9,370 nucleotides of DNA, from NCBI GenBank assembly GCA_027081065.1, contig JALWLW010000123.1, positions 1 to 9,370 on the forward strand. Direction: 5' to 3'. Within the stretch, counting starts at the first letter, position 1. Each line of letters starts with the position of its first letter. The stretch is from Campylobacteraceae bacterium (GTDB lineage: Bacteria > Campylobacterota > Campylobacteria > Campylobacterales > Sulfurovaceae). Below, piece after piece: positions 1 to 9,370 of this stretch. The translations under genes and the position numbers were made by a program. A model generated the notes under the pieces. That model was not told the DNA's origin. It searched no databases and saw only the letters and a list, made by a program, of their open reading frames with translations.

Positions 1-34
1 GAATATTGAAATAAATAATTTAATATTGAAGTAA
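1..34 (+). CDS. 3' tail of an upstream gene (partial)
   Basis: One forward frame, starting at base 2, is open from the window edge to a TAA at 32-34. It encodes about ten residues ending N-L-I-L-K; the other two forward frames stop within the first 14 bases. The TAA overlaps the SD (TAAGGA, 32-37) of the next gene, a spacing usual for consecutive genes of one operon. Too little is visible to name the protein. The short open stretch could also be chance. Confidence 0.35.
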   Translation, partial: NIEINNLILK

Positions 35-44
35 GGAAACATAC

Positions 45-590
45 GTGACATTAAATAGAAGCATTTTATTTTCTTTACTAGTTACTATCTTTTTTATAAG
101 CTTTACACTCTATATGAATGTTCAACCAATATATGATGAACAGTTAGAAGAGCTTAGATTGTCAAAAATTCAAAAAGTATGTATGAAAACAGATTTACGA
201 CAAAGAAAAATTTATACCCCTCAACGTTCTCTTCTTTTAGCAGAAAAAGTATTGAAGAAAATGCTAGATGTAAATCCTGTACAATTTACTGTCAATGATT
301 TTTCGCTAGAGTCAACCAAGTCTCCAAATGTAAACAAAGAAGTATTAACTCAAATGGTTGCTCTTCTTAATAATATTAAAGAGGATTTTATTTTAAGTAT
401 TACAGCCTATACAGATAGTGTTGGTACAGCAAAAGATAATCTTATCTTGTCTCAGAGAAGAGCTGATAGACTTAAGGCATACTTTTTAAAAAGAACAGCG
501 TTGCCTTTCATTGTTGCGATTGGTTATGGAGAAGCATTCCCTTTAGAAAATAGACACATAGAATTTAAGTTAACAAGGATTAAACAATGA
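45..590 (+). CDS. OmpA-family protein with N-terminal membrane anchor
   Basis: This 181-residue protein starts at a GTG preceded by AAGGA at 33-37. Residues 6-24 form a hydrophobic segment with no clear signal-peptidase site, so it is probably an inner-membrane signal anchor with a periplasmic body. Residues about 78-178 resemble the OmpA/MotB peptidoglycan-binding domain. The motif A-Y-T-D-S-V-G (121-127) is followed by L-S-Q-R-R-A-D (135-141) and a final G-Y-G-E...N-R-H-I-E-F. D124 and an arginine at 138/139 match the pair that binds diaminopimelate in OmpA domains. The loop before the last NR is about ten residues shorter than usual. It is probably translationally coupled to the next gene (ATGA overlap). 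The likely role is tethering an envelope complex to peptidoglycan; the specific partner is unknown. Confidence 0.75.
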   Translation: MTLNRSILFSLLVTIFFISFTLYMNVQPIYDEQLEELRLSKIQKVCMKTDLRQRKIYTPQRSLLLAEKVLKKMLDVNPVQFTVNDFSLESTKSPNVNKEVLTQMVALLNNIKEDFILSITAYTDSVGTAKDNLILSQRRADRLKAYFLKRTALPFIVAIGYGEAFPLENRHIEFKLTRIKQ

Positions 591-1144
591 TAAATATAGC
601 ATTACAAATTAGTACTTATATCTTTATAGCCTTATTATTAGGATATTTTTTTGGTTGGTTAATAACAAAATCACTCATAAAAGAAAGATATCAAGCATAT
701 TTAGATGAATTTGTTTCAAATAACAGTGTTGAAACTGAAGAAACTCGTAAAATTAAAGATGAGATTTTTCAAATTAAGCGAGAAAATAAACGATTAAAAG
801 AGAAAAATAAAGAGTTGAGTTCAGGTTATATGGGACAAAAATATGTACTCGATGAGCATAATGCAACTTTAGATGAATTTCAAAAACGTCTAAAGAGTAA
901 AGATGAGGTGATTAGTGTTTTAACAGCTAAATTGTCTTTGGCTGAAGAGGCTCAAAGAAAAATAGAAAAAAAATATGAAGAGGAGATAGATGCTTTTATG
1001 TTTGAAAGAATTGAAATTACTCAAAAATATAAAAAACTTTTAGATAAGTTTAATGTGCTTATTAAACAAAAAAAAGGTTTAGATAGTGATAATACTTCAT
1101 GGTTTTCTAAGTTTTTTTCATCATCTTTAATAAATACCCATTAA
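587..1144 (+). CDS. Membrane-anchored coiled-coil protein, function unknown
   Basis: This 185-residue protein starts at ATG 587, inside the stop of the OmpA-like gene (ATGA overlap), with AAGGA at 575-579. Residues 3-27 are a single hydrophobic helix. Residues about 50-165 are rich in K, E, R, Q and L with no glycine or proline run, typical of a long coiled coil. The C-terminus ([10 protein letters not shown]) is aromatic. I recognise no catalytic motif and no named family. Co-translation with an OmpA-like anchored protein suggests that the two act together at the cell envelope, perhaps as the cytoplasmic and periplasmic parts of one assembly; this is inference from context. The stop codon overlaps the folE stop on the other strand. 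Confidence 0.75.
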
Positions 1145-1172
1145 AAATTTGAAGGGGCAGGGGTATTTATTA
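1128..1172. terminator. Inverted repeat across convergent gene ends; candidate bidirectional terminator
   Basis: TAATAAATACCC (1128-1139) is the exact reverse complement of GGGTATTTATTA (1161-1172), giving a 12-bp stem with a 21-nt loop. Both stop codons (TTAA, 1141-1144) lie in the loop. The forward transcript continues into T-rich sequence (TATTATAA). The reverse transcript has U residues only within the stem arm. The stem is AU-rich and the loop is long, so termination strength is uncertain. No other hairpin separates the two genes. Confidence 0.5.
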
Positions 1173-1719
1173 TATTATAAAACTCACTCCGTGTGCGTTG
1201 GTCACTTTTAAAGAGCCCTCTTAGAGCTGAACTTACCGTGGTAGAGTTAATCTTTTGTACTCCTCTCATCTCCATACACATGTGTCGTGCATGAATAACT
1301 ACAGCTACTCCTTTAGGATGAATGGCAGAGGCAATGGCATCAGCAATCTGTTCCGTCATTTGTTCTTGAATCTGTAAGCGTCTAGCAAATACATTTACAA
1401 TACGAGGTATTTTTGAGAGTCCCACTACTTTTCCATCAGGTATGTAGGCGACATGAGCTCTTCCAATAATGGGTAACATATGATGCTCACAAGTAGAGTA
1501 AAACTCAATGTCACGGACAACCACCATCTCATCATTGCTAGAAGTAAATAGGGCTTTGTTTAAAATGGCTTCAGGGTCTTCGTGGTAACCTTCTGTTAAA
1601 AATTCCCAAGCTTTTGCCACACGTGAAGGGGTTTTAAGTAGACCTTCTCTTTTTGGGTCTTCGCCTAAAAGCTCTAAAACTTTAGTAACAGCACCTTCAA
1701 ACTCTTCTTGTTTCTTCAT
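1141..1719 (-). CDS. folE: GTP cyclohydrolase I
   Basis: The 192-residue enzyme converts GTP to 7,8-dihydroneopterin triphosphate plus formate in the cytoplasm. This is the first step of folate synthesis and, through the tetrahydropterin branch, of queuosine synthesis. The family signatures are clear: C-E-H-H-M-L-P (77-83), G-L-S-K-I-P-R (100-106), R-R-L-Q-I-Q-E-Q (113-120) and [11 protein letters not shown] (143-153). Zinc ligands C77, H80 and C148 have the same spacing as C110, H113 and C181 of the E. coli enzyme. H79 and H146 match catalytic histidines. Length and start are normal for the short bacterial form. AGGAT at 1727-1731 (minus strand) precedes the ATG. It is divergent from luxS and convergent with the coiled-coil gene. 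Confidence 0.97.
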
Positions 1720-1801
1720 TCTGATATCCTAATGCTTTTTAATTGTGCTATTTTAACATTATTATTGTATATTTCGTTTATTAATATAACAAGGAATTAT
1801 T
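1720..1801. promoter_or_regulatory. Divergent folE/luxS promoter region
   Basis: This 82-bp intergenic stretch must hold both promoters. On the minus strand a TAAAAT (1750-1755, in GTTAAAATAG) is a fair -10 box for folE, about 30 bases before its start codon. On the plus strand TATATT (1768-1773) is the best -10 candidate for luxS, followed by AAGGA (1791-1795). There are no convincing -35 boxes, as is common for sigma-70 promoters in Campylobacterota. No S-box or other riboswitch was recognised. Confidence 0.4.
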
Positions 1802-2323
1802 ATGCCATTATTAGATAGTTTTACTGTAGACCATACAAAAATGCCAGCACCAGCAGTAAGAGTTGCAAAAAGTATGAGCACCCCAAGTGGCGATGACATT
1901 ACTGTTTTTGATTTACGTTTTTGTCAACCCAATAAAGATATTTTGTCTGAAAGAGGTATTCATACTTTAGAGCATTTATTTGCAGGGTTCATGCGTGACC
2001 ATTTAAACTCTAAAAAAGTAGAAATCATTGACCTCTCTCCAATGGGTTGTAGAACAGGGTTTTACATGTCACTTCTTGGAAGTCCTAAAGAGAAAAAAGT
2101 AGCCAAAGCATGGAAAAAAGCGATGAAAGATGTGTTAGGGGTTAAGAGTCAAAGTGACATTCCTGAACTAAATCTTTACCAATGTGGAACATGTGAAATG
2201 CATTCACTTGATGAAGCACAACAAATTGCACAAAACATTGTAGATGCTGACATAGGTATTATGTCTAATGAGGATTTAAAGCTTTCAAAAAAGAAACTCA
2301 AAAAGTTAGAAAAAGAAGCCTAA
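1802..2323 (+). CDS. luxS: S-ribosylhomocysteine lyase (autoinducer-2 synthesis)
   Basis: The 173-residue cytoplasmic enzyme splits S-ribosylhomocysteine into homocysteine and DPD, the autoinducer-2 precursor, in the activated methyl cycle. The metal site H-T-L-E-H (54-58) plus C128 matches the H54/H58/C126 ligands of the B. subtilis enzyme. The general bases are C83 (M-G-C-R-T-G-F-Y) and E57. Substrate-site residues S6, H11 and R39 are also in place. The last 15 residues form a lysine-rich tail (K-K-K-L-K-K-L-E-K) beyond the core fold. SD AAGGA at 1791-1795 sits 6 bases before the ATG. The next gene starts directly after the stop codon. Confidence 0.97.
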
Positions 2324-3091
2324 GTGTATAACGAAGTACTAAGACCTCAAAAGGAGTTGGTACTTTGTGAAGATGGTACAAATACCCTCTTTTCAAAAGA
2401 GTTTAATGAACCTTATCACTCTACTAAAGATGGGGCGTTACATGAGTCTTTAGAAAAACATGTAAAACCTGCTTTTCAAATTAAAAAAGATTATGAAAAA
2501 ATAACGATTTTAGATATTTGTTTTGGTTTAGGCTACAATACCTTTGCCACGTTTTACTACATTAAAAAAAATAATTTAAAAACAAAAGTACATGTACTCT
2601 CTCCTGAATTTGATGAAGAGCTTATATCCTCACTTCATACATTTACATATCCCAAAGAATTTGATGAAATCAAACATATTATAAAAGCCATTAGTCAAAA
2701 CTTTTTTTATGAAGATGAGCAATTTAAAATAGAAATACTTTTAGGTGATGCAAGAAAAGAAGTTCCTAAAATAAAAGAACAAATAGATGTCATCTACCAA
2801 GATGCATTTTCTCCAGCACACAATCCACTACTTTGGACAAGAGAATTTTTTGCAGAGATGGCAAAACTTTCAAAAGAAGATACCATCTTAACTACTTATT
2901 CAACAGCAGCTGCTACGCGTTTAGGGCTTTATGAAAATGGATTTTATATTTTTATTCACAGGGCAGAGTTGATGAGGTATTCAACTGTAGCTTCTATGAA
3001 GATGCTTGAAGGCTTTGAGTATGTGGATATGGAGTTGAAAAAAGAGCGTAATCCTATAGCGAAGAGTTTTAGGGATGAGGGTTATAAATAA
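2324..3091 (+). CDS. MnmC2-type (DUF752) tRNA wobble-uridine methyltransferase, stand-alone domain
   Basis: This 255-residue SAM-dependent methyltransferase resembles the N-terminal domain of MnmC, which makes 5-methylaminomethyl-(2-thio)uridine from the aminomethyl form at U34 of tRNA. The SAM-binding motif is L-D-I-C-F-G-L-G-Y-N-T (63-73). The family signature Y-Q-D-A-F-S-P-A-H-N-P-L-L-W-T (158-172) corresponds to D-G-F-A-P-A-K-N-P-x-M-W in E. coli MnmC. The N-terminal Y-H-S..G-A-L-H-E-S (31-42) also fits. The FAD oxidase domain (MnmC1) that follows in E. coli MnmC is absent; the protein ends about where the methyltransferase domain should. The single-domain DUF752 protein of Aquifex aeolicus is a known precedent. 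The start is a GTG directly after the luxS TAA with only a weak SD, so translation is probably coupled to luxS. Confidence 0.8.
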   Translation: MYNEVLRPQKELVLCEDGTNTLFSKEFNEPYHSTKDGALHESLEKHVKPAFQIKKDYEKITILDICFGLGYNTFATFYYIKKNNLKTKVHVLSPEFDEELISSLHTFTYPKEFDEIKHIIKAISQNFFYEDEQFKIEILLGDARKEVPKIKEQIDVIYQDAFSPAHNPLLWTREFFAEMAKLSKEDTILTTYSTAAATRLGLYENGFYIFIHRAELMRYSTVASMKMLEGFEYVDMELKKERNPIAKSFRDEGYK

Positions 3092-3161
3092 GTTATATTC
3101 TTAATTAGCTATATATCAATAAAATACTAAAATATATTTACTTATTTAAAGAAATAAACTA

Positions 3162-3190
3162 TATAATACCTAAAAGGAGTTAGGTATTAT
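3162..3190 (+). promoter_or_regulatory. -10 box plus 11-bp palindrome enclosing SD and start codon
   Basis: TATAAT at 3162-3167 is a perfect -10 hexamer. ATAATACCTAA (3163-3173) and TTAGGTATTAT (3180-3190) are exact reverse complements, separated by the 6-base loop AAGGAG (3174-3179), which is the SD of the ATPase gene. The right arm runs into the first two bases of the ATG. A start site 6-8 bases after the -10 box would fall at about 3173-3176. In that case the gene's own mRNA lacks most of the left arm, while mRNA reading through from luxS could form the full hairpin. The dyad could equally be a protein-binding operator. Confidence 0.6.
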
Positions 3191-4382
3191 GACTAATATT
3201 AGCTATTTTATAAAAAAACAGACACTACTACTTTCTCAAACCTCTACTGAATTTATTAGAAGTGATTACCTTAACTTCTTAAAAGAAAATGAAAAGTTAT
3301 TAGGCTTAATCGGTTCTCGTGGTGTGGGAAAAACTACGCTTTTGTTGCAGTACTTGAAACAATCAGAAGAATTATTTCTTTATATTTCAGCAGATGATGC
3401 AGCTTTTCAAGACATACGGCTTTATGACCTTGTGGACGAAGCTTATAGTTTGGGTAGAAAACTAATCGTCATAGATGAAGTACATAAGTCGCAAAATTGG
3501 GCTCAAGAACTTAAAAACATTTATGATAGTTTTCCCGATATACGCATACGAATTTCTGGAAGTTCTATGATAAATATTTTGTATGAAAAGTATGATTTAA
3601 GTAGACGCTTGGTTTTGACTATTGTACCACATCTTTCGTTTAGAGAGTTTTTGTCCATGCAAAAAGGAGTGGAGTTTAAGAAGTTAGCGTTAGAAGATGT
3701 TTTAAAAAATGCTATGACGCTTAGTTCAGATTTGGTGTTTGCTCATGAAGATTTATATGCACTTTTTAGAGAATATTTGGAGTATGGAGCGTATCCTTTT
3801 TACCTGGAAGGGAAAAAGAACTTTTCAAAAAAATTATTTTATGCTTTAGAGAAGGTGATAAATGAGGATATTCCCTCTTTAAATAAAATTGATTTTGCCC
3901 ATATTATCATCTTTAAAAAGTTGATTTTTCGTTTGGTTGAGGCGAAAAAGCCTTTACAAGTTAATGTGGCAAAGCTTTCCCGAGAGTTGGGTATAAGTGA
4001 ACCTACACTCTATACTTATTTTGAGATTTTAGATAAAAGTGGCATTATTAAACCTTTGAAAAAATACTCTAAAAAAATCACTAAAAAACCTGAAAAGCTT
4101 CTTTTCTCAAATTCAAACATATTATATGCTTATGCCAAAGAGTTTGACCAAGAGATAGAGGTAGGAACGGTTCGAGAAATATTTTTTGTGAATTGTTTTG
4201 AAAAGATTTTTTACTCAGACATAGGTGACTTTAGAGTAGGGGAAAACCTTTTTGAAGTAGGTGGAAAAAATAAGAGTTTTAACCAAATTAAAGATATAGA
4301 AAACTCTTTTTTAGTCATAGATGTAGATTACAGTGTAGAGGCTAGGAAAATTCCACTTTGGTTGTTTGGGTTTTTGTATTAA
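3189..4382 (+). CDS. AAA-family ATPase of the COG1373/DUF4143-like group
   Basis: The protein has 397 residues. The N-terminal ATPase has Walker A G-S-R-G-V-G-K-T (42-49), Walker B K-L-I-V-I-D-E-V-H-K (91-100) and a sensor-like I-S-G-S-S-M-I (122-128). Residues about 256-292 (V-N-V-A-K-L-S-R-E-L-G-I-S-E-P-T-L) look like a winged helix. The C-terminus holds F-E-V-G-G-K-N-K (355-362) and ends I-P-L-W-L-F-G-F-L-Y. This layout is known in many bacteria and archaea, but the cellular role is not established. The E-V...K near the end recalls restriction-nuclease-like folds, which is only a guess. The gene is complete, stands alone, and starts inside a palindrome. The kinase gene converges on it after a six-T spacer. 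Confidence 0.75.
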   Translation: MTNISYFIKKQTLLLSQTSTEFIRSDYLNFLKENEKLLGLIGSRGVGKTTLLLQYLKQSEELFLYISADDAAFQDIRLYDLVDEAYSLGRKLIVIDEVHKSQNWAQELKNIYDSFPDIRIRISGSSMINILYEKYDLSRRLVLTIVPHLSFREFLSMQKGVEFKKLALEDVLKNAMTLSSDLVFAHEDLYALFREYLEYGAYPFYLEGKKNFSKKLFYALEKVINEDIPSLNKIDFAHIIIFKKLIFRLVEAKKPLQVNVAKLSRELGISEPTLYTYFEILDKSGIIKPLKKYSKKITKKPEKLLFSNSNILYAYAKEFDQEIEVGTVREIFFVNCFEKIFYSDIGDFRVGENLFEVGGKNKSFNQIKDIENSFLVIDVDYSVEARKIPLWLFGFLY

Positions 4383-4388
4383 TTTTTT

Positions 4389-5186
4389 CTAAACCGTATC
4401 AATCTGCCCTCGTTCAAGCTTCCCAAACCATATTGTCCATAAGGTAGTGTAAATGACTTTAAAAGCTTCTAGTTTTTTATGGTTGGCTTTTCCTTGTTTA
4501 AAAAAGTATGTTCGTAAAAAAGTAAGCTCATCTTTTTTATTGAGTTTAAACTCTAAAATAATGGCTGCTAAGTCAAAGTATCGGTCGGTAACTCCTGCGT
4601 ATTCCCAGTCAATGAATTGTATCTTTTTTCCAAAAAGAATGTTTTTAGGGTGTAAGTCATTGTGTCCTAAAACGTATTCAGGTTTAAATGTTTCAATGAC
4701 TCTAAAGGCATTTTGAGCTTTTTTATCTTTGTATTTAAAGCTACTTTTAAAGTTGTTAGCTTGTTGTTGTAATTTAAGTTGATGAAGCTTTCTTAGGGTA
4801 CGGGCTAATTTTTTTAGGGTTTGCTGGTTAAGCTTAGCACGATGCTCGCCTTCAATATAGTTACAAATCATTAGTTGTTTTTCTTCATCTAAAAGTAGGG
4901 CTTTAGCTGCAATGCCTTTTTTATGGGCTAGATTCTGTATGTAAAATTCGGCTTTTCGTTGACTTTTATGTTTAAACTTTCTAAGTAGATATTTCTGTTG
5001 ATCAGTTTGAATTAAATAGTTAATATTGCAATACCCTTGTTGCTTTAAAAGAGAAAATTCTTTTATATTTTGGTTTTTTAGTAGTTCATAGGGTCTTAAG
5101 TCTATAGAAGGAGATTGTTTACGCCATAGGTAATAGCTAAGTCCAGCTATCAGTATAAGCAAAAAAATAATAAAGTTAACTAACAT
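4389..5186 (-). CDS. Membrane-anchored choline-kinase/APH-like phosphotransferase
   Basis: The protein has 265 residues. A hydrophobic helix at residues 4-21 is followed by R-K, placing the kinase domain in the cytoplasm. The kinase motifs are G-H-N-D-L-H-P-K-N (174-182; D177 catalytic, N182 metal ligand) and F-I-D-W-E-Y-A-G-V-T-D-R-Y-F-D-L-A (191-207; D193 metal ligand). I-C-N-Y-I-E-G (107-113) resembles the hinge. This fits the LicA/choline kinase and aminoglycoside phosphotransferase fold; the substrate (choline, sugar or amino alcohol) cannot be read from sequence. The frame extends upstream to a GTG at 5279, but that start has no SD. The ATG at 5186 has AAGGAG five bases before it and a TATAAT (5208-5213, minus strand) just upstream, so I use 5186. 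Confidence 0.8.
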   Translation of the reverse strand: MLVNFIIFLLILIAGLSYYLWRKQSPSIDLRPYELLKNQNIKEFSLLKQQGYCNINYLIQTDQQKYLLRKFKHKSQRKAEFYIQNLAHKKGIAAKALLLDEEKQLMICNYIEGEHRAKLNQQTLKKLARTLRKLHQLKLQQQANNFKSSFKYKDKKAQNAFRVIETFKPEYVLGHNDLHPKNILFGKKIQFIDWEYAGVTDRYFDLAAIILEFKLNKKDELTFLRTYFFKQGKANHKKLEAFKVIYTTLWTIWFGKLERGQIDTV

Positions 5187-5207
5187 GCTACTCCTTAAAA
5201 TTTTGGG

Positions 5208-5213
5208 ATTATA
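5208..5213 (-). promoter_or_regulatory. -10 box of the phosphotransferase gene
   Basis: The minus strand reads CGCTATAATCCC, an exact TATAAT. It predicts a start site near 5201 and a leader of about 15 bases ending in the AAGGAG SD. Its position downstream of the alternative GTG at 5279 supports the shorter gene model. Confidence 0.6.
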
Positions 5214-5220
5214 GCGTAAT

Positions 5221-5249
5221 TTGACAAAGCCATAAAAATAGGTTAAACT
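5221..5249 (+). promoter_or_regulatory. Candidate promoter of the leuA leader transcript
   Basis: TTGACA (5221-5226) is an exact -35 hexamer. With a 17-base spacer the -10 would be TAAACT (5244-5249), four of six matches. TATATA at 5256-5261 is an alternative -10 without a -35. Either choice starts transcription before the leader ORF's SD at 5268-5275. The promoter lies back to back with that of the phosphotransferase gene. Confidence 0.45.
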
Positions 5250-5281
5250 TCTTCTTATATAAACCACAGAAGGAGTCACCT

Positions 5282-5356
5282 ATGTCAAACACAACGACAC
5301 ATAAAAACCAAACCATTAGAACAAAGTCTCTTCTTCTACTCTTACTCTCTGCTTAA
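5282..5356 (+). CDS. Leu-rich leader peptide upstream of leuA (LeuL-like)
   Basis: This short ORF of 24 codons was not previously listed. It starts at ATG 5282 with a strong SD, AGAAGGAG (5268-5275), six bases upstream. The N-terminal half is polar (T, N, K, Q). Codons 17-22 (5330-5347) are six consecutive leucines (CTT CTT CTA CTC TTA CTC), then Ser-Ala-stop. The ORF ends 79 bases before leuA. A well-initiated tiny ORF with a run of codons for the end product of the downstream pathway is the hallmark of ribosome-mediated attenuation, as known for leuABCD of enterobacteria. In this model, when charged Leu-tRNA is scarce the ribosome stalls in the run and leuA is expressed. The peptide itself probably has no other job. 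The assignment is by pattern and position, since leader peptides are not conserved in sequence. Confidence 0.75.
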   Translation: MSNTTTHKNQTIRTKSLLLLLLSA

Positions 5357-5399
5357 CGCATACTTTTTACCCACCCTTTTTACAACTTAATCATAACAT

Positions 5400-5416
5400 A
5401 ACGCCATGGCGTTTAT
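5400..5416 (+). terminator. Palindromic hairpin in the leuA leader; possible attenuator
   Basis: AACGCCATGGCGTT (5400-5413) is a perfect 14-base palindrome, able to form a 5-bp GC-containing stem (AACGC/GCGTT) with a CATG loop. It is followed by TATATAA, only a poor U-tract. A second AACGC (5355-5359) overlaps the leader stop codon and could compete for GCGTT (5409-5413), giving two mutually exclusive folds as in attenuators. The stem is short, so termination is uncertain. Confidence 0.35.
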
Positions 5417-5435
5417 ATAAACACAAGAGTACCCA

Positions 5436-7097
5436 ATGAAATATAAAAAATTTAATAAAATAAACTTACCCAATCGTACTTGGGTTGATGCAGAGATAAC
5501 CAAAGCACCTATTTGGTGTTCAGTAGATTTACGAGATGGTAATCAAGCCTTGATTAAACCTATGAGTTTAGAAAAGAAGATTCGTTTTTTTAACTTGTTG
5601 GTCGAAGTTGGCTTTAAAGAGATAGAGATAGGTTTTCCAAGTGCGAGTGAAGTGGAGTATGAGTTTACACGTTACTTAATTGAAAATAATTTAATTCCAG
5701 ATGACGTGACCATTCAAGTCTTAACCCAAGCACGTGAACACTTAATTAAAAAAAGTGCCGAAGCATTAAGAGGGGCTAAAAATGTGATTGTACATTTGTA
5801 CAATCCAACCTCAACCATGCAACGTGAAGTGGTCTACCAAAAAAGTCAAGATGAGATTATTGAGATTGCTTTAAATGGAGTAGGGTGGATAAAGAAGTAT
5901 TTCGCTGATTTTGGAAAAGAAAATGGTGGAACAGTTCGCTTTGAGTATTCCCCAGAGAGTTTCACACAAACAGAGTTGGACTATGCTGTGAAAATTTCAA
6001 ATGCTGTCATAGAATCTTGGAATCCACAAGGTGAAGAGAAGATGATTTTGAATTTACCTTCAACTGTTGAGTCAGCAACGCCCAATGTCTATGCCGACCA
6101 AATAGAGTATATGTCAACAAATATAATAAGACGAGAGAATGTTTTAATAAGCGTTCATGCACACAATGACCGTGGTTGTGCTGTGGCTTCAACAGAATTG
6201 GGCTTAATGGCAGGAGCAGACAGGGTTGAGGGAACATTGTTAGGCAATGGTGAACGAACGGGCAATGTAGACATTGTCACCGTGGGTTTAAACATGTATA
6301 CCCAAGGCGTTGACCCCAAGTTAGATTTCTCTAATGTAGACAAAATCGTTAAAGTGGTTGAAGCCTCCAACGAAATAAAAACGCACATTCGCCACCCCTA
6401 TGTGGGAGAGTTGGTTTATACAGCTTTTTCAGGTTCACACCAAGATGCCATTAAAAAAGGGATGAATAGGCAAGAAGAGAATGCATTATGGTATGTGCCG
6501 TACTTACCCATAGACCCTAAAGATGTGGGGCGAGATTATGAGTCGATTATTCAGATTAATTCTCAATCAGGTAAAGGTGGGGTTGCTTATATCTTGTCTT
6601 CAGTATTTGGTTATAACGTTCCAAAACCAATGGAGCAATCTATTGGAAAAGTTATTCAAGCAATGAGTGACAAGCACGATGGGGTTTTAAGTGAGCAGAG
6701 GATAGGTAAAATTTTTACTAAATATTTTATGAACCGAGAAGATATTTATAAAATTAAAGAGTTACAGATTACGATTGAAGATAAAATTACAACGGTTAAA
6801 GGTAAGTTTTTTGTAGGAGAAGATTCAGTAAGTAAAGAAGTTAAAGCAGAGGGCATCATTGAAGCTGTTGCTACTGCTTTTGAGTCTTTGGGGGTGGTGT
6901 TTGAAGTAGTAGACTACAGTGAACATGCATTAAGTGTAGGGAAAGAGTCACAAGCTATGGCATATTTCGCTGTAAAAATGAACAATAGGGTCTTTTATGG
7001 GGCTGGATTAGGAAAGAACATCTCGTATGCTTCCATTAATGCATTAGTTTGTGCTTTAAATGTTGGAAATGACATAGTATTGAGTAGTAGATATTAG
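5436..7097 (+). CDS. leuA: 2-isopropylmalate synthase, long form
   Basis: The 553-residue cytoplasmic enzyme condenses acetyl-CoA with 2-ketoisovalerate, the first committed step of leucine synthesis. Catalytic TIM-barrel motifs are D-L-R-D-G-N-Q-A (31-38), H-A-H-N-D-R-G-C-A (241-249) and G-N-G-E-R-T-G-N (270-277). D34, H241, H243 and N277 match the divalent-metal ligands of M. tuberculosis LeuA. The length and the C-terminal domain (about 440-553) place it in the long class with the leucine-feedback regulatory domain. The SD is modest (AAGAG, 5425-5429, six bases before ATG), which suits a translationally controlled gene. It follows the Leu-rich leader. leuB, leuC and leuD are not adjacent. 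I see no convincing terminator hairpin in the 121 bases after it. Confidence 0.95.
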   Translation: MKYKKFNKINLPNRTWVDAEITKAPIWCSVDLRDGNQALIKPMSLEKKIRFFNLLVEVGFKEIEIGFPSASEVEYEFTRYLIENNLIPDDVTIQVLTQAREHLIKKSAEALRGAKNVIVHLYNPTSTMQREVVYQKSQDEIIEIALNGVGWIKKYFADFGKENGGTVRFEYSPESFTQTELDYAVKISNAVIESWNPQGEEKMILNLPSTVESATPNVYADQIEYMSTNIIRRENVLISVHAHNDRGCAVASTELGLMAGADRVEGTLLGNGERTGNVDIVTVGLNMYTQGVDPKLDFSNVDKIVKVVEASNEIKTHIRHPYVGELVYTAFSGSHQDAIKKGMNRQEENALWYVPYLPIDPKDVGRDYESIIQINSQSGKGGVAYILSSVFGYNVPKPMEQSIGKVIQAMSDKHDGVLSEQRIGKIFTKYFMNREDIYKIKELQITIEDKITTVKGKFFVGEDSVSKEVKAEGIIEAVATAFESLGVVFEVVDYSEHALSVGKESQAMAYFAVKMNNRVFYGAGLGKNISYASINALVCALNVGNDIVLSSRY

Positions 7098-7177
7098 TTT
7101 TTATTTGTACTTGTTGTCTAATCAGAAGTTTTTTTAAAAAAAAGCCATAGCCCCCTCTGAAATTAATATTTAAATGT

Positions 7178-7183
7178 TAAAAT
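7178..7183 (+). promoter_or_regulatory. Candidate -10 box of the TerB-like gene
   Basis: TAAAAT in the context ATGTTAAAATATTC lies 35 bases before the ATG, with SD AAGGA at 7208-7212 in between. No -35 is evident. The surrounding 7098-7218 interval is otherwise AT-rich and shows no ORF. Confidence 0.35.
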
Positions 7184-7218
7184 ATTCTTAAATAATAATA
7201 CTAATATAAGGATTTAAG

Positions 7219-7692
7219 ATGAAACTGATTAAAAGATTAGAAGAGATGTTTGATAAACTCATGGGTGAAGAGATTTTTCATAAAGATAGTACGATTAAAG
7301 AGATTATTTCTAAAGCTATTGGTAAAGATGTAGATGAACTAAATTCACGAGAAGAAGTTTACATTTTACTTAAAGCGATGATTAATGCAGCAAAAGTTGA
7401 TGGTCAAGTTGATAGTGATGAACAAAAGAAAATTTTAGAATTTATGGGTGATATGTCTAAGGTAGAACAACTTTTTGTAGAGCAAGAGTTAAAAAAAACT
7501 TTGAATGTAGAAGAGTTTTTAAAAGAGATTCCAAAAGAAATGGCTGAACAAGTTTACTATATAAGTCTTTTTGCTATTGACTTAGATAATGAGGATGAGA
7601 GAGCTTATTTAGAAATGTTGTCTCATAAATTAAATTTACCTTATGAAGTAGTTACTGGAATTCATGAAAGTTTAGACGCTCAAGCTGCTTAA
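7219..7692 (+). CDS. TerB-like / DUF533-like small protein
   Basis: The protein has 157 residues, is acidic, and has no signal peptide or membrane helix. Residues about 46-153 resemble the all-helical TerB fold and the C-terminal part of YebE (DUF533). L-K-A-M-I-N-A-A-K-V-D-G-Q-V-D (51-65) is the typical first acidic motif, with D61, D65 and E68. A second acidic cluster A-I-D-L-D-N-E-D-E-R-A-Y-L (119-131) comes later. TerB-type domains carry such acidic sites and are linked to metal or membrane-stress functions, but the role of this group is unknown. The hydrophobic N-terminal region of YebE is absent. SD AAGGA (7208-7212) precedes the ATG by six bases. It is followed after 41 bases by the NifX-like gene, which has its own promoter. 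Confidence 0.7.
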   Translation: MKLIKRLEEMFDKLMGEEIFHKDSTIKEIISKAIGKDVDELNSREEVYILLKAMINAAKVDGQVDSDEQKKILEFMGDMSKVEQLFVEQELKKTLNVEEFLKEIPKEMAEQVYYISLFAIDLDNEDERAYLEMLSHKLNLPYEVVTGIHESLDAQAA

Positions 7693-7733
7693 GCTCATTT
7701 CTCTTTTGCTATAATGTTTTAAAAAGAGAAGCT
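7692..7733 (+). promoter_or_regulatory. Extended -10 promoter inside an inverted repeat, upstream of the NifX-like gene
   Basis: TGCTATAAT (7707-7715) is an exact extended -10 element. It lies in the loop between TTCTCTTTT (7699-7707) and its exact complement AAAAGAGAA (7722-7730). AGC (7692-7694) and GCT (7731-7733) can add three pairs past a 4-base bulge. The right arm holds the SD (AAGAG, 7724-7728). A start at about 7721-7723 gives an mRNA with a leader of 11-13 bases and no left arm. Read-through mRNA from the TerB-like gene would carry the whole hairpin and hide the SD. It could also act as a weak terminator. Confidence 0.55.
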
Positions 7734-8075
7734 ATGACCCTTATATGTTTAAATGATGATCAAAAGACTATTTCACAGCGTTTTAGAAAAACTGATTACT
7801 TTGCTTTTGTTAAGGAAGGTAAAGTAGAGGTTCAAAAGAATCCTCATAAACTTTCTAAATCACCAGAGTTTTTTGACTATTTTAAGACACTAGGTGTAGA
7901 GACCATCTATCTTAAAGCTTTGGGCTATAAAACCTTTTTGCGTTTAGAGAGCTTAGGTGTAAAAGTTTATTTAGTAGAAGATGTTACACTTTATTCTGAA
8001 ATAGAAACAGCAACATTACGTCGTATTGATGCTTCTAATGCTGAAAGTTTTTGTACTTTGGGGCATAAAAACTAA
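7734..8075 (+). CDS. NifX/FeMo-cofactor-domain-like small protein
   Basis: The 113-residue cytoplasmic protein spans one dinitrogenase iron-molybdenum cofactor domain (NifX/NafY/NifB C-terminal type). The pattern is I-S-Q-R-F-R-K-T-D-Y-F-A-F (13-25), then L-G-V-E-T-I-Y-L-K-A-L-G-Y-K-T-F-L-R-L-E-S-L-G-V-K-V-Y-L-V (53-81), matching the family's 'obscured source, then gi.vy' ending. No nif genes are nearby, and stand-alone members occur in organisms that do not fix nitrogen, so a role in nitrogenase assembly should not be assumed. It may bind an iron-sulfur or other metal cluster, although only one cysteine (C107) is present. The next gene converges on it: the two stops form the palindrome TAAAGCTTTA (8073-8082). 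Confidence 0.6.
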   Translation: MTLICLNDDQKTISQRFRKTDYFAFVKEGKVEVQKNPHKLSKSPEFFDYFKTLGVETIYLKALGYKTFLRLESLGVKVYLVEDVTLYSEIETATLRRIDASNAESFCTLGHKN

Positions 8076-8079
8076 AGCT

Positions 8080-8769
8080 TTAACGAATGACAAATAATTT
8101 TTTAATAGCCCACCAAATACCATTGCCCACATACCCTAGAGGCCCATAGATGGTTTTTTCTTTTAGATTGACCGAAATAGGTGACATCTCAACTGAGCTT
8201 TGCATATCTTTTAAGTTTCTCTCAAGCATGTCTATTTCGGTTTGAATACGATTGAGTTCTCTTTCTATACGTAAAATTTCTTCGATGTTTGAGGTTCTAT
8301 TAAGAAGAAGTTTCATTTTATCTTTAAAAATTTTTAAGTTTTTAAGTCGCTCTTCATGATTTGTAAATCTTTCTGTAATATCTCGTTTGTTAATCGATTG
8401 AGAAGTTTTTTCTCCTAGTTTTGCTATGGCATCTAAGGTAGAGATTAACTTCTCTGAAGGAACTTTTATATTTGCATAGTAGTAACCATCTTCAGAAAGA
8501 CGAGTATTTTCGATATGACCAGAATAGCTTTTAAGCAAAAGAGTTAGCTCTTTTGTTGCTTTATTGATATTGTCTACTTCTACTTCAATATTTGCAGACA
8601 TAGTGATTTTTCGTTTAGCTCCTACTGGAGAAGCCATCATTGGAGTAGCTCTTGCAGTTTGCTGATAAGTTATAGGTTGGGGTACGGCTTCAGAATATGA
8701 TACTTTTTGTGAGTTACAAGCCAAAAAGAGAAGTACTATTGGGAGGAGGAGAAAGTATTTAATTTTCAT
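8080..8769 (-). CDS. DUF4349 lipoprotein
   Basis: The protein has 229 residues. The N-terminus is a lipoprotein signal: M-K-I-K, a hydrophobic run (5-16), then F-L-A-C with lipidated C18 (F at -3 is slightly atypical). Residues about 55-205 match DUF4349: K-I-T-M-S-A-N-I-E-V-E-V (54-65), S-G-H-I-E (83-87), Y-Y-A-N-I-K-V-P (98-105), then R-F-T-N-H-E-E-R-L-K-N-L (134-145) leading into a helical segment (160-190) likely to form a coiled-coil hairpin. The tail G-I-W-W-A-I-K-K-L-F-V is only briefly hydrophobic, shorter than the C-terminal membrane helix seen in many family members. The function of the family is unknown and the location is the cell envelope. SD AAGGA precedes the ATG on the minus strand. 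Confidence 0.8.
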   Translation of the reverse strand: MKIKYFLLLPIVLLFLACNSQKVSYSEAVPQPITYQQTARATPMMASPVGAKRKITMSANIEVEVDNINKATKELTLLLKSYSGHIENTRLSEDGYYYANIKVPSEKLISTLDAIAKLGEKTSQSINKRDITERFTNHEERLKNLKIFKDKMKLLLNRTSNIEEILRIERELNRIQTEIDMLERNLKDMQSSVEMSPISVNLKEKTIYGPLGYVGNGIWWAIKKLFVIR

Positions 8770-8822
8770 GATTTTCCTTAAATAATTGTTTTTTAATGTA
8801 TAAAATCATATTTTATTATTGG

Positions 8823-8828
8823 ATTATA
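8823..8828 (-). promoter_or_regulatory. Candidate -10 box of the DUF4349 lipoprotein gene
   Basis: The minus strand reads GATATAATCC, an exact TATAAT. It lies 53 bases upstream of the start codon and predicts a leader of about 47 bases. No -35 box is recognisable. Confidence 0.45.
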
Positions 8829-9092
8829 TCATTTTTATTATGATAAGATTATATACCATTTGAAGATAATATTAACCACTACCTTTGCCTATATGACTAA
8901 GGAGAACTGAAATATGAAGTAGAGGTTAAAAATAATTATATGAAGAGAGATACTAAAAATAGGAAGGAAAAAAATATCTCTCTCATGTGGAAAGTATAGG
9001 GTTATTTTGTGAGGTGATTGTGTAGAGAAATAAAAGCTCAAACGATAAGGAGCATTATCATTTTATAAAACCCATATTATCTGAAAAGAACC

Positions 9093-9108
9093 TATAATTA
9101 AGTACTTA
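9093..9108 (+). promoter_or_regulatory. Candidate -10 box followed by a palindrome
   Basis: TATAAT (9093-9098) is directly followed by the 10-base palindrome TAAGTACTTA (9099-9108), where the start site would fall. No -35 is seen. It would drive the partial ORF at 9182 with a leader of about 75 bases. Confidence 0.3.
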
Positions 9109-9148
9109 GAAACTCTTTTATCCTAAAGTTAATAAAAATTTAGATACG

Positions 9149-9164
9149 ATTATTTTAAAATAAT
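9149..9164. repeat. Perfect AT palindrome upstream of the terminal partial ORF
   Basis: ATTATTTTAAAATAAT is a 16-base perfect palindrome. It lies inside a wider pair, TCCTAAA (9121-9127) and TTTAGGA (9164-9170), whose right arm contains the AGGA SD-like bases. It could be a repressor site or chance in AT-rich DNA. It does not match a full Fur box. Confidence 0.35.
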
Positions 9165-9181
9165 TTAGGACAATAAACAAT

Positions 9182-9370
9182 ATGCAAATACTCAAAGTCT
9201 CAGGTACATTTCATAATGAATTTAAACCTTGCCTTTGTAGTTGCTATTTTAGTTATATTACTCATATTATGATGCATCTTTATCATTACATTCCTCGTTG
9301 TTCTTACTATACTGTTTGTTTCGCATTCCGTCGTACTGGTGTGCATCCTCCTCTTTTTTCTTTTATTAAA
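9182..9370 (+). CDS. Possible 5' end of a gene, running off the window
   Basis: The frame from ATG 9182 is open for 63 codons to the window edge. An AGGA (9167-9170) lies 11 bases upstream, a little far for an SD. Third codon positions are strongly T-biased, as expected of coding DNA here, but the protein is odd: six Cys (C-L-C-S-C at 18-22), many His, Tyr and Phe, and no recognised domain. The sequence is pyrimidine-rich, and another frame (ATG 9216) reads as two very hydrophobic stretches interrupted by a TGA, so the true frame is uncertain. Confidence 0.35.
   Translation, partial: MQILKVSGTFHNEFKPCLCSCYFSYITHIMMHLYHYIPRCSYYTVCFAFRRTGVHPPLFSFIK

Follow-up and report, generated by a model that had tools for sequence, protein, structure and literature searches.

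The stretch of DNA analyzed here (the window) comprises 9,370 nucleotides from a Campylobacteraceae bacterium (assembly GCA_027081065.1, contig JALWLW010000123.1, positions 1 to 9,370). It carries folE on the minus strand (1141-1719), luxS (1802-2323), an mnmC2-like gene (2324-3091), and, on the plus strand at 5436..7097, a leuA gene encoding a 2-isopropylmalate synthase of 553 aa. According to its profile matches, this protein belongs to the long, leuA_yeast type of LeuA (TIGR00970, 698.0 bits with a cut-off of 697.4; NF002991, 790.1 bits with a cut-off of 455). Its best matches, at 69-71% identity, come from uncultured Epsilonproteobacteria/Campylobacterales genomes. The genes leuB, leuC, and leuD are absent from the window.

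Upstream of leuA lies a leader peptide ORF of the LeuL type (MSNTTTHKNQTIRTKSLLLLLLSA; 5282..5356, plus strand), which starts with an ATG at 5282, ends with a TAA at 5354-5356, and has 24 codons plus the stop. Its Shine-Dalgarno (SD) sequence, AGAAGGAG (5268..5275, plus strand), is spaced 6 nt from the ATG, and six consecutive Leu codons, CTT CTT CTA CTC TTA CTC, occupy 5330..5347 on the plus strand. A sequence-only reading of the window had proposed this ORF with its good SD and its six Leu codons, located 79 bases upstream of leuA, and we confirmed these elements from the sequence, the gap being 5357-5435. That reading also placed the Leu run just before the stop; the run is indeed near the end of the ORF, but two codons (TCT GCT) separate it from the TAA.

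Taken alone, six Leu codons in a row are not a rare chance event. Such runs occur six times on the two strands of 693 kb from Campylobacterota loci, and the six frames of the window hold a second one at 6865, inside leuA and out of frame. When the search was restricted to short ORFs (no more than 40 aa) that combine an SD match of at least 5 with 6 or more Leu among their final 12 residues, it returned four in 637 kb from Campylobacterota loci, read on both strands and all chosen for containing leuA; each of the four ORFs lies directly before leuA. A Pfam search with the leader peptide returned no family. The leader shows the sequence features by which LeuL is recognized, namely, a length of 20-35 aa, several C-terminal Leu residues, a ribosome-binding site, and a position upstream of leucine genes.

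Distribution of the leader among relatives

We examined 22 genomes from the family of the nearest genome, 14 of which have the long leuA. A comparison of the 5' regions of leuA from related genomes, in line with the check suggested by the sequence-only reading, bears the leader out: a Leu-codon leader precedes the long leuA in all 14 (L001, L002, L004, L005, L087, and L166-L172, with L262 and L263 added via an RNA model; in L262, from genome G406, leuA is apparently split across two contigs). The Leu codons of 13 family leaders favor CTC (44/93), and those of the leuA genes favor TTG/TTA (269/463). In eight of the 14 genomes that carry the long gene, a short-type leuA scoring above the TIGR00973 cut-off is present as well. 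It is absent from G001, G002, G255, G416, G417, and G418, whose long LeuA proteins are among the closest to that of the window.

No leader was seen at L003 or L006 (LeuA 69% and 59% identical), which lie outside the 22 family genomes, or before leuA at L014, L021, and L024. Among genes for LeuA of about 550 aa outside the family, no convincing leader was found at L088-L115 (28 loci) or L116-L135 (20 loci) with a filter of at least 5 Leu in the last 16 residues, which would miss Leu-poor leaders; weak candidates with poor SDs did appear. One exception is L285, the only locus of the ~430-aa class that was looked at, where a leader lies 105 nt before a LeuA-like ORF of ~444 aa. The shorter leuA type is preceded by a leader in 65 of the 105 phylum loci examined (30 best matches, 60 picked among the matches listed, and 15 more), and some of the 40 loci without a leader are cut by contig ends. 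Combined with 13 family leaders, these make a set of 78, in which the doubtful picks L227 and L234 were retained; dereplication at 80% identity leaves 56.

A second leader type (type 2), reading approximately GxxKxxKxLPKIEIKN before its Leu codons, precedes the short leuA at 19 loci (L175, L179, L180, L182, L185, L189, L190, L196, L197, L200, L211, L231, L151, L152, L154, L156, L158, L159, and L163). The LPKIEIKN segment is conserved in 17 of the 19 dereplicated leaders (L231 and L197 are each one residue off), even though every one of its positions shows synonymous codon variation. Selection on the peptide therefore seems likely, and this leader may act as an arrest-like peptide or have some other function at the peptide level. 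L210 was assigned to type 2 by text match, though it is type 1 in appearance. A further six leaders are labeled C. jejuni-like here.

Probable pairing of the Leu codons with the SD of the leader

In the minimum-energy fold of the window, the leader SD at 5268-5275 is joined to 5330-5337. The resulting helix, H1, has the SD as its 5' arm and CTTCTTCT, at the beginning of the Leu run (5330..5337, plus strand), as its 3' arm, with 8 pairs, including one G-U. Across the family, the first Leu codons are complementary to the SD plus the spacer that separates it from the ATG, and both sides change together: AGGAGAAGT pairs with ACTTCTCCT in L087 and L169, AGGAGCAGT with ACTGCTCCT in L005, GGAGAAGAG with CTCTTCTCC in L171, and AGGAGAAA with TTTCTCCT in L167. 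The arms fit more poorly in L170 and L168. In an alignment of 13 family members, 80% of the H1 cells are paired, versus 41-63% in slid versions of the alignment. The covariation score was matched by 1 of 500 shuffles, and the count of pairs with changes on both sides was matched by 35 of 500.

Partners were also exchanged among leaders. In a permutation test over the 56 dereplicated leaders, which takes leaders as exchangeable, true partners pair at -10.7 kcal/mol and permuted ones at -9.7 kcal/mol (p=5e-5), and controls with the first 36 nt of the leader (p=0.83) or the RNA after the stop (p=0.91) were null. When type 1 leaders were tested with the family removed, the effect persisted (n=20, p=0.0007), and it was weak in type 2 leaders (n=20, p=0.035). 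The six C. jejuni-like leaders lack H1, their own partner ranking 20-53 of 56; an anti-SD after the stop, which was sought in this group, was not significant. Kinship was addressed in part by swaps within 25 disjoint pairs of nearest relatives, where the own partner was better in 18, worse in 4, and tied in 3 (Wilcoxon 3.4e-4), with controls at 11 v 11 and 12 v 11. Pairing beyond the GGAG core also exceeds that of swaps (p=0.005, n=44).

Runs of CTC/CTT inherently resemble an anti-SD, and H1, like the helix H2 described below, could be a by-product of composition, with pyrimidine-rich Leu codons pairing to purine-rich SDs. In the window alone, H1 is unremarkable against synonymous leaders with leader-like codon use (p=0.59), H1 and H2 jointly reach p=0.05, and the fold has a z of -1.17. 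For the family, H1 stands out when leuA codon use is the null (combined p=6e-5) and does not when leader codon use is (p=0.11), so that the case for H1 depends on the partner swaps. Here the own partners beat swaps of the same kind, including those between nearest relatives, and the controls are null, which speaks against a by-product in the case of H1; for H2, only the within-family permutation test does so. We consider the by-product explanation for the two helices quite unlikely. As judged from sequence comparison, H1 is very likely a real selected helix in this clade, and what supports it is the co-variation of the partners, not an exceptional pairing strength.

Leu leaders with H1 are also found before a gene for a class I SAM methyltransferase of ~254 aa (L265, L266, L267, L269, L270, L272, and L275). 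Three of the seven proteins were searched and are nearest to trans-aconitate 2-methyltransferase and BioC, below the cut-offs; the other four are alike by eye. At L267, for example, AGGAGAACGA pairs with TCGTTCTCCT. Permutation of H1 partners among methyltransferase-type leaders gave p=0.006 (n=9, not dereplicated), in a test that is biased because the model that finds these leaders contains H1. Hairpins and then T runs follow in these leaders, and several share a block near TTTTATAGATTCCTTGATTGGATGACC. At L273 and L274, the next ORF differs from the methyltransferase. The methyltransferase gene may be leucine controlled.

Possible pairing of the Leu codons with the SD of leuA

The later Leu codons are complementary to the leuA SD region. 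The 5' arm of this putative second helix, H2, is TACTCTTACTCT (5337..5348, plus strand), which contains two tandem TACTCT copies and can pair through 5337-5343 or 5343-5348; the 3' arm is the leuA SD region, AAGAGTA (5425..5431, plus strand). In the window, AAGAGTA and TACTCTT form 7 pairs, and the minimum-energy fold has 6. The leuA SD region folds onto the Leu end of the leader in the minimum-energy folds of 12 of the 13 family members, the exception being L171. H2 extends to 13-14 pairs in L004, L170, and L172, and L005 makes it from a different sequence pair, TGCTTTCC with GGAAAGCA.

Within the family, permutation of H2 partners gave p=0.0016 (n=10) and, with L262 and L263, which enter this test only, p=0.0033 (n=12; N-terminus control, p=0.09). 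The comparison between nearest relatives of the family, at 4 v 1, was not significant, nor was the window alone against synonymous leaders with leader-like codon use (p=0.14). The leuA SD of the window is paired equally well by one of 55 other Leu regions, and for its Leu region the same is true of 12 of 55 other leuA SDs. A pairing of this kind, together with a terminator, is found in E. coli at -7.5 kcal/mol, versus -7.4 kcal/mol for H2 of the window.

As a feature of the whole phylum, H2 was rejected: outside the family, the tests gave p=0.35 and 0.78, and the nearest-relative test was not significant (13 v 11 with the C. jejuni-like group set aside). The value of p=0.002 obtained across all 56 leaders is due to the family members. 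Pairing of the leuA SD with intergenic RNA was also rejected, being weaker than with swapped partners (p=0.99).

When the Leu codons were masked, as they would be by a stalled ribosome, the leuA SD of the window was predicted to become more open, going from 0.40 to 0.50-0.68. In L004, the value rose from 0.09 to ~0.6 for six of the seven codons; the effect was partial in L170, L001, and L002, and masking barely opened the SD in L172 and L005. Overall, we give slightly less than an even chance to H2 being active in the window.

Signals for transcription initiation and termination

A promoter-like TTGACA-17-TAAACT is located ahead of the leader (5221..5249, plus strand; 10 of 12 in a consensus scan), and the aligned place in L005, L170, L171, and L172 has TTGACA and TATACT. 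The scan itself is weak, with 3 sites versus 1.5 expected. If leuA had its own promoter in between, the leader would be a separate transcript with no action in cis. In the window, a TATATAA at 5414-5420 would be suitable. Six loci (L001, L002, L087, L166, L167, and L168) have a block of approximately TTTGCATAT..TTTATGCTATATT, about 25-55 nt before leuA, that resembles the TATGCTACAAT before some of their leaders and can be read as an extended -10-like promoter or as a small hairpin. Yet the window, L004, L005, and L169-L172 do not conserve this block, its hairpin reading is also possible, and the linkage between leader and leuA holds in all 14 family genomes. We regard a separate leuA promoter as improbable.

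Classical attenuation, as in enterobacteria, would place an intrinsic terminator between the leader and leuA, with an antiterminator formed upon stalling. Two simple scans found no intrinsic terminator in the leader-leuA stretch of the window, and the sole terminator-like site in a promoter/terminator scan of the window is on the minus strand. A perfect 14-nt palindrome, AACGCCATGGCGTT (5400..5413, plus strand), could be a weak hairpin or an operator; it is followed by TATATAAAC, with no T run, and fails the terminator criteria. The adjoining TTATATAAAC at 5413-5422 is a repeat of 5255-5264. Among relatives, terminator-like hairpins occur in 12 of 59 leader-leuA stretches, versus 1.7 expected in shuffles (e.g., L004, L170, and L172), hairpins with T runs were seen by eye after the methyltransferase-gene leaders, and passages of PMC3847290 place the LeuL RNA end past the leader stop in C. 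jejuni, all in favor of this model. In contrast, the remaining 47 stretches, including that of the window, have no terminator-like hairpin, and no competing antiterminator helix stood out in the folds. E. coli K-12 leuL, when folded, shows a strong hairpin with a T run downstream. The enterobacterial mechanism is therefore unsupported in the window, where no terminator was found, and classical attenuation is an unlikely explanation. In this regard, the sequence-only reading, which saw the architecture of an enterobacterial leucine attenuator, stands in part: a leucine-sensing leader is well supported, but the window has no Rfam match at gathering cut-offs and no intrinsic terminator.

A hairpin over the stop codon, TGCTYAGNCTCTRAGCA, is present in L004, L005, L170, L171, and L172, as well as in L265, L266, L270, L272, L273, and L275. 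In the first five, the stop matches the paired Leu codon, TGA with CTC in three and TAA with CTT in two. This is possibly an RNA polymerase pause hairpin. By fold and alignment, the window has TGC-TTAAC-GCA over its stop codon (5350..5360, plus strand), perhaps a 3-pair remnant of the putatively homologous hairpin of its relatives.

Termination could instead depend on Rho, in the manner of tnaC, if the RNA that begins at the Leu codons, rich in C and poor in G, served as a Rho loading site hidden by the stalled ribosome. The Leu run of the window has 31% C and 6% G and the gap has 28% C and 8% G, versus 15% C and 14% G upstream of the leader. The gaps of type 2 leaders are likewise G-poor (21% C and 6.5% G, versus 19% C and 20% G upstream), and the 47 of 59 stretches without a terminator agree with this model. 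However, the argument is based on composition, type 1 gaps as a group differ little from the upstream sequence (17% C and 10% G versus 16% C and 14.5% G), and the C. jejuni-like gaps have 7% C and 7% G. Rho-dependent attenuation is thus, in our estimate, rather unlikely. As for transcription termination as the output in the window, which would be compatible with H2, it is a real possibility that falls somewhat short of being favored.

A model for leucine-responsive control of leuA

In view of the masking result, the scans that showed no terminator in the window, and the C-rich, G-poor gap, we therefore favor control by stalling, with a proposed output through release of the SD or relief of termination. 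We have little doubt that the leader ORF confers leucine-responsive control on leuA, and 5282-5356 is, on balance, probably a LeuL-type leader that reports the supply of leucyl-tRNA to leuA. Most likely, leucine starvation causes stalling on the Leu codons and leads to more leuA, via a freed leuA SD and/or blocked termination.

In such a scheme, the first ribosome would load on the leader before H1 forms. With ample leucine, it would run through and leave, and H1 would then close the leader to new ribosomes, acting as a gate that shuts whenever no ribosome occupies the Leu codons. With scarce leucyl-tRNA, the ribosome would stall on the CTN codons and mask one arm of each helix, the 3' arm in H1 and the 5' (Leu-codon) arm in H2; H1 would remain open, and leuA would be translated. 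In addition or alternatively, the stall would keep Rho or a terminator from ending transcription in the G-poor stretch past the leader.

A broader proposal can be made, tentatively and with the balance tilted against it. Leaving aside the C. jejuni-like group, the control codons of most Campylobacterota leu leaders would themselves serve as anti-SD to the leader, so that the attenuator closes itself and lets new ribosomes in only during a stall. In the family of the window, the same run would also close the leuA SD, and one stalled ribosome would open both.

Comparison with known systems

E. coli K-12 leuL also is a Leu-codon leader before leuA whose SD pairs inside the leader (-12.8 kcal/mol). 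There, however, the partner of the SD lies in codons downstream of the Leu run, and the leader is followed by a strong terminator, whereas in the window the SD pairs with the Leu codons and the scans show no terminator. Older work on E. coli trpL has its ribosome-binding site pairing with later leader RNA; no paper on this pairing was found among open-licence PMC papers. Since the SD of E. coli leuL also pairs within its leader, closing of a leader SD is not new in principle. In E. coli tnaC, a Rho loading stretch follows the leader ORF, as may be the case in the window, but tnaC senses free tryptophan through nascent-peptide arrest, whereas codon starvation is presumed here.

The sequence-only reading left it undecided whether such a leader has been described in this lineage. 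It has: the relevant passages of PMC3847290 name LeuL in C. jejuni, with an RNA end shortly past the leader stop, propose attenuation, and report LeuL in most Epsilonproteobacteria that have leucine genes, and those of PMC11955535 give a Ribo-seq start peak for LeuL in C. jejuni. By the tBLASTn searches in the latter passages, LeuL is generally found only in C. jejuni and related Campylobacter. The leader of the window shares with LeuL, as portrayed there, a length of 20-35 aa, Leu codons near the end, a position upstream of leucine genes, and the phylum. It differs in that the leaders taken here as the C. jejuni type lack H1 and in that it precedes the long leuA type.

The closest parallel for H2 is the actinobacterial LEU element, in which a run of Leu codons pairs with the leuA SD (PMC1262725). 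Both have a Leu-codon leader before leuA and, as the LEU element is portrayed in the passages of PMC1262725 devoted to it, both apparently lack other attenuator parts; H2, if it forms, would be the counterpart of the pairing between its Leu codons and the leuA SD. The LEU element has a pseudoknot, and those passages mention no pairing with the SD of the leader itself; they also cite mutational data that argue against control by Leu codons in Actinobacteria.

Of PMC3847290, PMC11955535, and PMC1262725, only the last describes a related pairing, in its passages on the LEU element. Comparison with relatives suggests that the Leu codons fold back on ribosome-binding sites, and, as far as the open-licence PMC papers searched go, the use of the control Leu codons as an anti-SD would be the new element. 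The leader of the window thus joins a known, little-studied family, in which control codons that double as an anti-SD offer a testable RNA anatomy. If the model is true, it would provide a route by which leucine could control leuA within a phylum in which no intrinsic terminator showed in 47 of 59 leader-leuA stretches scanned.
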